A DNA stretch of 64,000 bases, taken from the NCBI GenBank assembly GCA_026005175.1, contig BPKO01000010.1, forward strand, positions 1 to 64,000, read 5' to 3'. How positions within the stretch are numbered: the stretch's first letter is position 1; every line of letters starts with the position of its first letter. The notes under the pieces are model-generated. The model did no database searches. It had not been told where the DNA came from and saw only the letters and a program-made list of their open reading frames with translations. Origin of the DNA: Candidatus Tectimicrobiota bacterium (GTDB lineage Bacteria > Tectomicrobia > Entotheonellia > Entotheonellales > Entotheonellaceae). The translations under genes and the position numbers were made by a program. Below, piece after piece: positions 22,983 through 27,933 of the stretch.

Positions 22983-24087
22983 TCATGGTGCTGCGGGGGC
23001 GAGCCAGCCCTGGGCTGTGGCGGCGCGGCGCCGCAGCCAGGCCGGATTCCCCAGGAGCTGGCGGTTCACCGTGATGCGCTTAAAGAGCAGCTGCAGCGGA
23101 TACTCGTCGGTAAAGCCGATGCCACCGTGCACTTCGGTGGCCGCCTTGGCGATCATCGTCCCCACCTCGCTCAGATGGGCTTTGACGAGCGGAGCCAGGT
23201 ACGCCATCTCGGCCGGCGCGGCGTCAAAAGCGTAAGCGGCGTACCAGAGAAGCGAACGCGCCGGCTCCAGCGCCGCCACCATCTCGGCGCACAGAGTGCT
23301 TGACCGCCTGGAAAGACCCGATGGGGCGCCCGAATTGCCGCCGCTCTTTGGCATAAGCCACCGCCATGTCGAGGGCGCGCTCGCTGGCGCCCAGGATCTC
23401 GGCGGCCAGCACCAGCCAGGCGGCGGCAAGCAGGCGGGCAATGACCGCTTCTCCCTCGCCCCGGCTGCCCAGGCAGTCGGCAGGTGCCGCCTCACAGACC
23501 AGCTCGCCCAGGCGCCGCGTTTCGTCCACGGTGGGCAGCAGGGTCAGGCGCAGCCCGGGGGCCTCGCGCGGCACCAGCACCAAGTCGCCCTCCCGGGTCG
23601 CTACCAGAAAGGCATCGGCAGCAGCGGCATCAAGGACAAAGAGGGCTTTGCCAAAGAGCCGGCCGTCGCGCAGCACCATTCCGGCGCCCTCGCGACCCCC
23701 GACTTGCTCTGCCAGCGCCACGCCGATGCAAGCGCGGCCGCTGGCCAGCTGTGGCAGCCATGCCTGCTGTGGCGCCGGCGTGCCGGCCGCCAGCAGCGCC
23801 AGCGGCGCCAGCACGGCGCTGCCCAGGAAAGGCACCGGCAGCGCCCCCTGCGCCAGGGTTTCGGCAATGAGGACGGCGTCGAGCAGGGCCAGGCCGCTGC
23901 CGCCGTAAGCCGCGGGGACCAGCACCCCCGGCACCCCCAGGGCCGCCAGGCCCTGCCACAGCAGCGGGTCGTGGGCAGTGTCGCGGCGCATGATGTCCCG
24001 CACCCGCCCCCAGGGCGCCTCTTCTTCGAGGTAGCGGCGCAGGGTGTCAACGAGCAGCCGTTGCTCGGGCGAGAGGCCAAAGTCCAT
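22983..24087 (-). CDS. Acyl-CoA dehydrogenase (second of a pair), one-base frameshift
   Basis: FAD-dependent acyl-CoA dehydrogenase-like protein, about 367 aa after repair. The first frame runs MDFGLSPEQRLLVDTLRRYL to FGRPIGSFQAVKH; the second resumes LCAEMVAALEPARSLLWYAA to VHGGIGFTDEYPLQLLFKR. Removing one base at about 23,295 joins them as FQAVKH-LCAEM, exactly as in homologues. The normal catalytic Glu is not obvious, as in the shorter partner of heterodimeric steroid/side-chain dehydrogenases. Its start overlaps the stop of the preceding dehydrogenase (TGATG), consistent with a two-subunit enzyme. Known alpha2-beta2 ACADs of actinobacterial sterol catabolism are the closest functional analogy (inference). 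Confidence 0.8.
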
Positions 24088-25293
24088 CAGCGCTTCTCCT
24101 CTCCCCGCGGCTCGCGCGGCAAGCCCAGGCCACGCTCGCCGATGATGTTTTTCTGGATCTGCGCCGTGCCGCCGCCGATGATCAGCCCCAGGGAAAACAA
24201 GTACTGGTACATCCAGGCGCCCCGGGCGCGCTCGTACTTGGCGCGGTGGTACAGCACCCCGAGCTCCCCCATGGCCTCAAGTGCCAGGGCACACAGGTCG
24301 TGGTTGAGCTGGCAGCCGTTGAGCTTCACGATGAGGCCCGCCACCCCGGCCGGCTCCCCCTTGAGGGCGCAGGTGAGCAGGCGCAGGGCGTGGTACTTCA
24401 TGGCCAGCACCTGCCCTTGCAGCTGCACGAGGCGGTCGCAGAGGACGGGGTCGTCAAGGGCCCCGGCGGCCGTCAACGGTTTCCTGCTGCATGAGGGCCA
24501 GCAGGTGGCGCCACAGGCGCTCGCTGTAACTGGCGCTGCCCAGCAGGTTGCGCTCGTGCCGCAGGGTGGTGTTGCCCACTTTCCACCCCTCGCCGCGCCG
24601 CCCCACCACGTTGCGCTTGGGCACGCGCACGTTGGTGAAGAAGACCTCGTTGAATTCTGCCAGGCCGGTCATGGTGCGCAGGGGGCGCACCTCGATGCCG
24701 GGGGTGCGCATGGGGATGAGCAAGTAGCTGAGGCCGGCGTGCTTGGGCGCCTGGGGCTCGGTGCGCACCAGGGCAAACATCATGTCGGCGTACTGCGCGG
24801 TGCTCGTCCAGATCTTCTGGCCGTTGATGACAAAGTCGTCGCCGTCGTCCACCGCCGTGGTCTGCACGCTGGCCAAGTCGCTGCCGGCACCGGGCTCGGA
24901 GTAGCCCTGGCACCAGATCACCTCGCCGCGAAGCGTAGGCGGGATCCAGGTACGCTTTTGCTCTTCGCTACCGTGCTCGAGCAGGGTGGGCACCAGCATG
25001 CTGATGCCCTGCGAAGCGGCCAGGCCGCGCGACACGCCGGCACGCTCGAACTCTTCCTCGATGATGATCGTCTCCAGCGGATCGGGGCGGGCGCCGTAAC
25101 CCCCGTACTCGCGGGGAATGGTGCGGCCGACGTAGCCGTGCTCCACGAGCAGCTGCTGCCAGCGCCGCAGGCGCGGGTCGCGGAGCTCGCCCAGCCCGAG
25201 GCCAGCCGGCGGCGCCTCGTGGCGGTGCTCTTCCAAGAAGCGGCGCACTTGCTGGCGAAACGCCTCGTACGCCTCGCCGTAGCTCAGGTCCAT
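24087..25293 (-). CDS. Acyl-CoA dehydrogenase (first of a pair), one frameshift
   Basis: Acyl-CoA dehydrogenase, about 401 aa. N-terminal HRHEAPPAGLG, then VGRTIPREYGG, WCQGYSEPGAGSDLASVQT (the FAD/substrate signature), DDFVINGQKIWTSTAQYAD and FFTNVRVPKRNVVG. The frame breaks at about 24,476 after LLALMQQETV. TAAGALDDPVLCDRLVQLQGQ continues in another frame to QKNIIGERGLGLPRE, the expected C-terminus. AGGGAGAAG precedes the ATG at 25293. Overlaps the next dehydrogenase by one base, then RidA: a three-gene operon, likely beta-oxidation of a bulky or branched acyl chain. Confidence 0.83.
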
Positions 25294-25375
25294 GGTCTAC
25301 TTCTCCCTAGGCGGGGATTTCTGGCCCTACCCTAGACGAGGGGCGTAGGCACGTCAAGGGGCGCCTGTGGGGCCC

Positions 25376-25406
25376 TTGACAAATGCCGCGCCGCAGGCAA
25401 GATAAT
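25376..25406 (+). promoter_or_regulatory. Promoter of the AhpD-like selenoprotein gene
   Basis: A perfect TTGACA (25376-25381) and GATAAT (25401-25406) separated by 19 bp. The leader is about 60 bases and ends in GAGGAGAAG before the ATG at 25473. Confidence 0.6.
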
Positions 25407-25472
25407 ACCCCTGCCTCGCCTGAGGACAAGCGGCCGGTCGCCAGGCGACCGCCGACAAGAGGAGAAGCACCG

Positions 25473-25775
25473 ATGGAAATCAAAGAATTTGCTGGCCTTT
25501 ACTACGCCGAAGGGGCGATGGACGAAAAGACGCGGCAGCTCGTGGCCCTGGCGGCCATGGTGGCTGCCGGCTGCCACACCTGAGCGCCGGCGCGCTTCGC
25601 GGCCGCGAAGCAAGCCGGGGCGAGCCGGGAAGAGCTCTCTGAAGCCCTGTATCTGGCCATGCGCGCCGCCGCCCGTGCCGTGTGGTCGACGGTAAAGACG
25701 AGCATTGCCGGCGTGGAGGAAGAGCTCAAACCGCTGCGGGAGATGGCAGAAGCGGTGGGCAGCCGCGCCTCCTAA
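25473..25775 (+). CDS. AhpD-like (carboxymuconolactone decarboxylase fold) protein, probable selenoprotein with in-frame TGA
   Basis: A 100-aa alkylhydroperoxidase-D-like protein if the TGA at 25581-25583 is read through. Residues 1-36 give DEKTRQLVALAAMVAAGCHT. The TGA is codon 37. The same frame then continues APARFAAAKQAGASREELSE and ALYLAMRAAARAVWS to a TAA. In this family a redox CxxC sits exactly here, so the TGA occupies the second Cys position (C34-H-T-U37). Ten bases after the TGA a hairpin with a GGCC loop begins, resembling a bacterial SECIS. CxxU forms of AhpD-like proteins are known in other bacteria. It would act as a thiol/selenol peroxidase or disulfide reductase. The His usually four residues after the second Cys is Arg here. 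A TGC-to-TGA base error is the main alternative. Confidence 0.72.
25594..25611 (+). promoter_or_regulatory. Candidate bacterial SECIS hairpin
   Basis: GCTTCGC-GGCC-GCGAAGC: seven perfect pairs closed by a GGCC tetraloop. The loop begins 17 nt after the TGA and its first base is G, as in known bacterial SECIS elements (E. coli fdhF has its small hairpin about 11 nt after the UGA with a GGUC loop). A lower CCGG/CCGG stem (25587-25590 with 25615-25618) can extend it across a small internal loop. GC-rich DNA forms hairpins easily, so position and loop matter more than stability. Confidence 0.6.
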
Positions 25776-25783
25776 GCGCCAAG

Positions 25784-25807
25784 GCCCCGGGCTCCGGAGC
25801 CCGGGGC
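25784..25807. terminator. Bidirectional terminator hairpin between convergent genes
   Basis: A perfect 24-bp palindrome (GCCCCGGGCTCC and its complement) lies between the stop of the AhpD-like gene (25775) and the stop of the convergent gene (25810). It has no T-run, so termination would rest on the stem alone. Confidence 0.6.
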
Positions 25808-25809
25808 GG

Positions 25810-26439
25810 CTAGCGATCACCCAGGACGACGCGCATGATCTTGCGCTCTAGCTCGCGTCCCAGGCGCTGCACTAGAGTAGTGCGCTCGTGGTTGCCCAGG
25901 GTGGCCACGTAGGCCACGCCCAGCAGGCGGCCGAGGCGGAAATCGACGATGGTCGACGACACCAGCCCCAGAGGGCTGGTCTGCAGCACGCGCAGGCCGG
26001 CAGCCAGGTCAGCAAAGCCGCGAAAAGCAAGGCGCCGCACTACCAGCAGGCGCTGGCCGGGCTGCACTTCGCGGTCGACGTGGGCCTCGAAGGCGGCAAG
26101 AAAGACGTCCTCGATCCAGCGCGCTACGCCCTGGGGGTCGTCAAAGAGGTGCACCACGGTGGCGGCCACCAAGTCAGTGCCAGGGGAAAGCGGCGTTCCG
26201 GGCTCAGGAGCGGGAGCGGCAAATTCTCGCAAGTAGCCGGTGAGGCGGCCTACGGCGCGAAAGCGGGCGGCGCTGCTTCCCGGCAGGCCCTGGCGGGCCA
26301 GGGTTTCGTTGTCGAGTTCGCCTTCGCGCCACAGCACGAAGTTGTGCAGCGCCGGGGGCAGTTCGTGCCGCGCCAGCACCATGTGCGGCAAATCGGCGGC
26401 GGTGACCACGGCGGTGGCCCGCAGGAGCGCTTCGGACAT
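25810..26439 (-). CDS. Hypothetical protein, 209 aa
   Basis: Unrecognised protein without signal peptide, starting at ATG 26439 behind CAGGAGACGG. It seems alpha/beta: [21 protein letters not shown], a central acidic [25 protein letters not shown], and a strand-rich C-terminus ([22 protein letters not shown]) ending [17 protein letters not shown]. No Cys and no catalytic motif. Similar layouts occur in single-domain relatives of secreted sensor-like proteins, but I cannot assign a family. It is divergent from msrB (78 bp) and convergent with the AhpD-like gene. Confidence 0.6.
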
Positions 26440-26516
26440 GGCCGTCTCCTGAGCACGAGGCGCTTCATCATAGCGAGGCAAGAGACGCCAGGCAAGGAGC
26501 AGGGGAGCAACGCGGG

Positions 26517-26924
26517 ATGGCAGAGAAAGTGGTCAAGAGCGAGGAGGAATGGCGGCAGATCCTGACGCCAGAGCAGTTTTACGTCTGCCGGCAAAAAGGT
26601 ACCGAGCGCGCCTTTAGCGGCGCGTACTACGACTGCAAAGAAGAAGGCACTTACCACTGCGTGTGCTGCGGCGCCGCGCTCTTTAGCTCGGCCACCAAGT
26701 ACGACTCGGGCACCGGCTGGCCGAGCTTCTGGGCGCCGCTGCACGAGGATGCCGTGCGCTACGCCGAAGACCGCAGCTGGTTCATGCGCCGCACCGAGGT
26801 GCTCTGCAGCCGCTGCGACGCCCACCTGGGACACGTCTTCAACGACGGCCCCCCGCCCACCGGGCTGCGCTACTGCATCAACTCGGTGGCCCTCAAGCTG
26901 GTGAAAAAGACGCCGGACGCTTGA
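26517..26924 (+). CDS. msrB: Peptide-methionine (R)-S-oxide reductase
   Basis: MsrB, 135 aa, single domain. It reduces methionine-R-sulfoxide in proteins using thioredoxin. Zinc knuckles are [10 protein letters not shown] and [13 protein letters not shown]. Conserved [14 protein letters not shown] and the catalytic Cys in [11 protein letters not shown] near the end are present; this is the Cys form, not the Sec form known in some organisms. ATG 26517. It forms a redox-repair island with the AhpD-like gene upstream and the MarR/DoxX genes downstream. The -35 box of the marR promoter overlaps its stop codon. Confidence 0.96.
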
Positions 26925-26952
26925 CAGGCCGCCTTCTTGTTAATATATTAAC
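26921..26952 (+). promoter_or_regulatory. marR promoter with palindromic operator over the -10 box
   Basis: TTGACA (26921-26926) overlaps the msrB stop. After 17 bp comes TATATT (26944-26949), inside the perfect palindrome GTTAATATATTAAC (26939-26952). A dimeric MarR bound there would block RNA polymerase, so autorepression is likely. Confidence 0.72.
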
Positions 26953-26970
26953 GAAGCGGAGGCGAGGGCG

Positions 26971-27417
26971 GTGAAGGGTGAGCGGCCAAGGCGACGCCTG
27001 CTGCATGACGAGGGCGAGCTGGTGCTGGTGCAGCTGATGCGGGTGAGCGAGCAGGTGCTCAAAGCCTTCAACGACTTTTTCCGCGCCCACGGCCTTACGG
27101 CTGCCCAGTACAACGTGCTGCGCATCCTGGAAGGGGCGGAAGGCCCCTTGCCGCAGCAGGAAATTGCGCGTCGCCTGCTGGTGTCGCGCGCCAACGTCAC
27201 CGGCCTCATCGACCGCCTCGAGGCGCGGGGCCTGGTGGAGCGCCGCGCCTGTGCCGACCGCCGGGTGCGCATGGTCCACCTGACGGCGCAGGGGCTGCGC
27301 TTTGTGGAGGAGACCTTCGAGGCGGTGACTGCGCTGTGCGCCGTGCTGCTCAAGCGCCTCAGCCTGGAGGAGCTGCAGGCCCTGCGGGGCTTGCTCCTCA
27401 AGCTGGAAGGCGCGTGA
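26971..27417 (+). CDS. MarR-family transcriptional regulator
   Basis: MarR-type winged-helix regulator, 148 aa. Start at GTG 26971, with GGAGG eight bases upstream and a leader of only ~15 bases. The DNA-binding region is GLTAAQYNVLRILEGAEG, PQQEIARRLLVSRANVTGLI (recognition helix) and the wing RLEARGLVERRACADRRVR. Flanking helices form the dimer and ligand pocket. The single Cys in RRACADR and another in VTALCAVL could sense oxidants, given msrB upstream and doxX downstream (inference). Likely represses itself and perhaps doxX. Confidence 0.92.
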   Translation: MKGERPRRRLLHDEGELVLVQLMRVSEQVLKAFNDFFRAHGLTAAQYNVLRILEGAEGPLPQQEIARRLLVSRANVTGLIDRLEARGLVERRACADRRVRMVHLTAQGLRFVEETFEAVTALCAVLLKRLSLEELQALRGLLLKLEGA

Positions 27418-27440
27418 GGCAGCGGTTTTTTTGTACCCAG

Positions 27441-27453
27441 ATTGTCAAGCAAT
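27441..27453 (+). promoter_or_regulatory. Possible second operator ahead of doxX
   Basis: ATTG-N5-CAAT (ATTGTCAAGCAAT) sits 37 bases before the doxX ATG in an A+T-rich patch. It resembles only loosely the marR palindrome, so control by MarR is a guess. Confidence 0.25.
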
Positions 27454-27489
27454 TTACAGCATTGTGCCTAACAAAAGAGGAGGCAAGCC

Positions 27490-27933
27490 ATGTGGCCGTT
27501 TCCCCTGCGTCCCCTGGCCGGCTGGGGGCTTACGGTGCTGCGGGTGATCGTGGGGGTGGTCTTTTTCCTCCACGGCTGGCAAAAGCTCTTCAGCTGGGGG
27601 CTGGGAAGCGTGGCCGGCTTCATGAGCCAGAGCGGCATTCCCCTGCCCGGGCTGGCCGCGGTGGTGGTAACCGCCGCCGAGCTCCTGGGCGGCCTGGCCC
27701 TGATCCTGGGGCTGCTGACCCGCTGGGCGGCCCTGGTGCTGGCGGTGAACATGCTGGTGGCCATCCTGGTGGTGCACCTGCGGCACGGCTTCTTCCTGCC
27801 CAACGGCTTCGAGTTCGCCCTCAGCCTGCTGGCGGCCAATGTGGCGCTGCTGCTCGAAGGCGGCGGCAAGCTGGAACTGGAAGCGCAGCTGCGGCCGCGC
27901 CAGGCGCCACAAGCCGCGCCGGCCCAAGTCTGA
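27490..27933 (+). CDS. DoxX-family inner-membrane protein
   Basis: DoxX/DoxD-like membrane protein of 147 aa with four hydrophobic helices: LTVLRVIVGVVFFLHGWQKL, LAAVVVTAAELLGGLALILG, WAALVLAVNMLVAILVVHL and FEFALSLLAANVALLLEGGG. The HGWQKL and P-x-P-GLA motifs are family hallmarks. DoxX proteins associate with thiol/oxidative-stress systems in several bacteria. GAGGAGG lies ahead of ATG 27490. The pairing with a MarR regulator is common and suggests inducible expression. Confidence 0.93.
   Translation: MWPFPLRPLAGWGLTVLRVIVGVVFFLHGWQKLFSWGLGSVAGFMSQSGIPLPGLAAVVVTAAELLGGLALILGLLTRWAALVLAVNMLVAILVVHLRHGFFLPNGFEFALSLLAANVALLLEGGGKLELEAQLRPRQAPQAAPAQV

Follow-up and report, generated by a model that had tools for sequence, protein, structure and literature searches.

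An in-frame UGA very probably specifies selenocysteine in a small AhpD-like redox protein of a Candidatus Tectimicrobiota bacterium

A gene at 25473..25775 on the + strand of the analysed window, a stretch of 64,000 nucleotides from a Candidatus Tectimicrobiota genome, very probably encodes a small AhpD-like redox protein in whose active site selenocysteine (Sec) is inserted via UGA. The best explanation of the sequence evidence, to which we give a probability of about 0.96, is a 100-residue member of the AhpD/CMD family with the active site Cys34-His-Thr-Sec37 and a UGA decoded as Sec; this assignment draws on the reading frame, a Pfam match, homologues, an AlphaFold2 model and fold matches. 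The standard code gives only a fragment of 36 residues, so that automatic annotation is likely to miss the gene in this genome as in dozens of others.

The frame opens with an ATG at 25473, 8 nt downstream of a Shine-Dalgarno-like AGGAG (25460..25464, +), and GGAGG-type sites occur at about the same place in relatives. It runs for 36 codons ending in Gly-Cys-His-Thr, encounters the TGA at 25581..25583 (+), and stays in frame beyond it as far as a TAA at 25773-25775, exactly as described in an earlier, sequence-only reading of this DNA. That reading had also placed the TGA, codon 37, at the second Cys of the AhpD CxxC motif. This holds: the readthrough protein matches the Pfam CMD domain (PF02627) over residues 8-67 with the TGA inside the match (E 1.8e-13; 50.7 bits against a cut-off of 23), and distant homologues have Cys at the site. 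The first residue of the resulting CxxU motif, Cys34, is encoded by TGC at 25572..25574 (+) and is Cys in 46 of 46 distinct close sequences. The AlphaFold2 model, built from homologues with a mean pLDDT of 94.1, is mainly helical, and the motif opens its second helix; among solved structures it matches CMD/AhpD proteins best, with a probability of 1.00 but an E-value of only 0.03 and TM scores of 0.5-0.6. On this model, the protein is predicted to have the AhpD fold.

Scanning a single genome for each species, we recovered 22 close loci, 63-74% identical in protein sequence over the whole length, from Rokubacteria, Methylomirabilota, one Nitrospinota MAG and the Olavius Delta 1 symbiont; in all 22 the motif opens with TGC and ends in TGA. 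The gene is also present in G004, one of four further genomes available from the phylum to which the window's genome belongs. In the phylum of Rokubacterium G068, a search of 95 available genomes turned up 46 close matches, each with one internal TGA, distributed over 45 of them. A search of a plasmid collection returned zero matches, with either the DNA or the protein as query. We assembled a set of 46 distinct CxxU sequences, mostly from Rokubacteria and Methylomirabilota, which includes the window copy and leaves out the distant locus L017. The Sec codon is TGA in every member of this set and Cys in none, whereas TGC or TGT stands there in almost all distant CMD proteins, which range from Burkholderiales to Desulfovibrio. 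The expectation that homologues would divide between TGA and Cys at this site was thus borne out, with close relatives always TGA and distant ones nearly always Cys. No homologue ends at the TGA; all run on past it in frame.

These comparisons bear on two of the alternatives. In the first, a Cys codon, TGC or TGT, of an ordinary CxxC protein would have been miscalled as TGA through a sequencing or assembly error. The assembly is indeed imperfect: at 22983-25293 on the - strand, neighbouring acyl-CoA dehydrogenase genes look split into ORFs of 279 + 129 aa and 287 + 170 aa that overlap in different frames, which suggests indel errors. These apparent frameshifts make doubts about single bases fair, and the relatives answer them, because TGA occupies the same codon in 45 further distinct sequences, drawn from many assemblies, and a private assembly error is thereby excluded; furthermore, the genome possesses the Sec machinery, and we give the miscall practically no credence. 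Equally improbable is a pseudogene or a true stop with a product of 36 residues only, as the standard code would have it, for the downstream half is kept in the same frame in all relatives, at the whole-protein identities given above and with frozen stem codons (see below). To judge from these alignments, sequencing error and gene decay are ruled out across the family and barely conceivable in the window copy.

Downstream of the UGA lies a putative SECIS apical hairpin (25594..25611, +), in which a 7-bp stem, GCUUCGC/GCGAAGC, is formed by arms at 25594-25600 and 25605-25611 and closed by a GGCC loop. The stem starts 10 nt and the loop 17 nt past the TGA, in agreement with the sequence-only reading. 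The minimum free energy structure sets the hairpin within a longer predicted fold with a lower stem (25584..25621, +), the form of which differs among relatives. The published model of bacterial SECIS elements specifies a loop of 3-9 nt, an upper stem of 4-16 bp, a G in the first two loop positions, a UGA-to-loop distance of 16-37 nt and a minimum free energy of at most -7.5 (PMC13188914). With its 4-nt loop, 7 bp, 17-nt spacing and an energy of -10.5 kcal/mol when folded alone, the window hairpin lies within these limits. A search of 24000-27000 against Rfam gave no match; to our knowledge Rfam holds no general bacterial SECIS family, and the empty result is hence uninformative.

The use of this hairpin as evidence in the sequence-only reading survives only in part. 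Taken alone it is weak, since comparable structures are frequent by chance in GC-rich DNA: when all 1034 TGAs of the window are counted, on both strands and in every frame, 101 of them (about 10%) precede a stem of no fewer than 7 bp with the published spacing and loop-G limits, and seven precede one that agrees with a tight version of the SECIS description. The folding energy of the 60 nt after the TGA was likewise rejected as stand-alone proof, its z-score being only -1.97. Support comes instead from evolutionary constraint. Counted from the TGA, codons +4, +5, +6 and +8 are CGC, TTC, GCG and GCG in 46/46 sequences, and codon +9 is AAG in all 45 that have Lys there. The loop codon +7, an Ala amid the stem codons, is GCT in 25, GCC in 20 and GCA in 1 of the 46, and conserved Ala codons outside the stem show mixed usage in the same sequences. 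Codon homozygosity is accordingly 1.0 in the five stem columns versus 0.44-0.72 at the other Ala columns (Mann-Whitney p 3e-4, a figure uncorrected for relatedness and to be read as a guide only). Distant paralogues alter both sides of the stem, with one pair changing from UA to CG and another from CG to GC or UA. Pairing is seen in 92.9% of cells against 81.6% in shuffles, none of the 500 shuffles reaching as high, and the covariation score is 0.265 against a maximum of 0.121 when the partner is slid; the second loop position is an invariant G in the paralogue alignment. As far as aligned sequences can tell, the hairpin is under stem-specific synonymous constraint and has undergone compensatory change, and the conservation of the TGA in 46/46 together with the frozen synonymous stem codons is far beyond chance. 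With its stem codons frozen and its loop free, the subfamily has an unusually clear SECIS signature and makes a good set on which to test models of bacterial SECIS elements.

The genome itself is equipped for Sec insertion. Profile searches for selA, selB, selC and selD, a check that the sequence-only reading had called for, found all four above curated cut-offs: selA (637.8 bits; cut-off 268) adjoins selB (391.5 bits; cut-off 242), the tRNA-Sec gene selC, with anticodon tca (UCA), lies at most 10 kb from them (76.5 bits; gathering threshold 47), and selD scores 378.9 bits (cut-off 125). The SelD of this genome (L037, G000:C9:120631-121554) has an in-frame TGA of its own, ACAG-U-ASKM, and is likely a selenoprotein itself. 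Among the genomes that supplied the 22 close loci, SelB is above the cut-off in 20, and the remaining two, with partial or elongation-factor-level matches only, are read as incomplete MAGs. Read-through alone is silent on which residue enters, and the UGA could in principle be decoded as another amino acid through Trp or Gly recoding or through suppression. This has a minimal chance of being right, given that distant homologues have Cys in the aligned position, that tRNA-Sec and SelA/B/D are present in the genome, and that a covarying hairpin stands at SECIS spacing after the UGA. The sequence-only reading is upheld both in its observations and in its interpretation as a probable selenoprotein, and a case built on sequences could hardly be stronger.

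Further candidates for Sec-containing members of the family were encountered in the same genome and elsewhere. The window's genome has two more CMD/AhpD-family genes whose motif contains an in-frame TGA at the corresponding position, and both are likely CxxU selenoproteins: a two-domain peroxidase-related protein with CDYU on contig 4 (L194, G000:C4:312300-313300) and a YciW-like/peroxidase-related protein with CHFU on contig 1 (L195, G000:C1:944300-945300). Formate dehydrogenase was considered as a second Sec family, and the matched stretches of the molybdopterin-family PF00384 hits contained no in-frame TGA. Rokubacteria and Methylomirabilota harbour a second AhpD/CMD-like selenoprotein group of 13 distinct sequences (L173 and L175-L186, for example L176:225-521; in G068, G142, G137, G148 and others) with the motif NTHU, or TTHU in one case. 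In this NxxU group Asn replaces the first Cys and leaves Sec without a partner Cys; the hairpin after the UGA has a sequence of its own, CCUGGC-(A/G)GG(U/C)-GCCAGG, and the group attains only 43.5 bits against the 110 set for the GSU3128 model. Another paralogue, L172 (G072:C330:6879-7112), has two in-frame TGAs that give UxxU (G-U-L-P-U), and its stem, CGCUUCGC/GCGAAGC, is that of the window gene. Finally, L189 (G087:C205, about 720-895) retains the hairpin-bearing C-terminal half and lacks the N-terminal half with CxxU in frame, and is either a relic or a misassembly.

In bacteria, SelB with its Sec-tRNA binds a hairpin and delivers Sec at the UGA (PMC13188914). By extension of this established biology, SelB carrying Sec-tRNA would bind the hairpin just behind the UGA of the window gene, Sec would be inserted, and translation would proceed to the TAA. 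Cys34 and Sec37 may then act as a selenenyl-sulfide redox couple on the AhpD fold that reduces a peroxide or a disulfide partner; as suggested by the family, Sec37 would be the attacking and Cys34 the resolving residue. The surroundings of this couple differ from those of AhpD, in which a proton relay that includes Glu118 and His137 assists the Cys pair (PMC3141380). In the alignment, the position of the Glu, 12 residues before the first Cys, is occupied by Gln22 (25536..25538, +), and that of the His, four residues past the second Cys, by Arg41 (25593..25595, +), which is Arg in 46/46 and the codon of which shares two bases with the SECIS stem. The Glu-Cys-Cys-His relay of the canonical AhpD peroxidase is hence lacking; judged by these residues the protein would be AhpD-like at most, not a canonical AhpD, and the loss of the Glu/His pair argues against the ordinary AhpD peroxidase cycle.

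Selenols are ionised even at neutral pH, and because of this Sec may make the relay, here replaced by Gln and Arg, dispensable. A bolder proposal is that the gene represents an obligately Sec-dependent AhpD-like subfamily (no Cys form was found here) in which Sec has taken over from the Glu/His relay, and that together with the NxxU paralogues it records a stepwise loss, first of the relay and then of the partner Cys. We hold this to be possible, if on balance doubtful; were it true, Sec would have let the AhpD active site shed the one and then the other. The presence of Gln and Arg at the relay positions renders it testable whether Sec replaces the need for the AhpD relay.

The alternative that fares best accepts a selenoprotein and disputes its function: rather than a peroxidase or disulfide reductase, the protein might serve in the handling of arsenic, selenium or metals, in the manner of the AhpD domains found joined to the ArsM and MduS methyltransferases. 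Among NCBIfam profiles the best matches are indeed to ArsM_AhpD_UU (53.1 bits) and MduS (51.5 bits), in each case to the AhpD-like part at the C-terminus, and the loss of the relay Glu and His fits as well. Both matches, however, are far under their cut-offs and reflect the shared domain, and the immediate neighbours examined included no recognisable methyltransferase or ars gene, whereas msrB is near by in the window. On this evidence we judge such a role unlikely, though it deserves to be kept in mind beside the reductase reading.

The gene neighbourhood of the window comprises the acyl-CoA dehydrogenases, msrB, MarR and DoxX. The last three, namely msrB (SelR domain, E 1.7e-53), a MarR regulator and a DoxX protein, stand in a row downstream at 26517-27933, within about 2 kb, and are a possible oxidative-stress group. 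In Rokubacteria a MocR-like regulator, named by eye from its sequence, lies upstream. No conserved operon was found between the window and Rokubacteria, as their neighbours differ (a noisy comparison, with overlapping ORFs in GC-rich DNA), and the neighbourhood therefore gives no pointer to the substrate.

AhpD/CMD-like selenoproteins with CxxU were already known from the Sargasso Sea survey (PMC1088965), and a 2026 review lists several such families, among them a CMD-like one with MBW1767730.1 and the GSU3128 family (PMC13188914). The window protein shares with the CMD-like selenoprotein the PF02627 domain, above the cut-off, and the CxxU motif, a comparison made by description only. The GSU3128 family (NF041047), distant homologues of AhpD, consists likewise of small single-domain CMD/AhpD proteins with CxxU; the window protein scores 47.5 bits (E 1.5e-12) against a cut-off of 110 and is a non-member by the NCBI rule, the intermediate L017, at 77.0 bits, being closer. 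Because this cut-off is missed, the gene is, on profile scores, best described as belonging to a subfamily without an NCBIfam model name, within the known CxxU AhpD/CMD selenoproteins. ArsM_AhpD_UU (NF041537) and MduS (NF045649), the best-scoring NCBIfam profiles over the AhpD part, are long methyltransferase-domain fusions, unlike the window protein with its single domain of 100 residues. M. tuberculosis AhpD and PA0269 have the same helix-hairpin fold bearing CxxC or CxxU that the model predicts for the window protein, but they combine CxxC with the Glu/His relay (PMC3141380) where the window protein has CxxU with Gln and Arg. The largest bacterial selenoproteome predicted so far is that of a Methylomirabilota MAG (PMC13188914), and a new subfamily of this kind is consistent with it.
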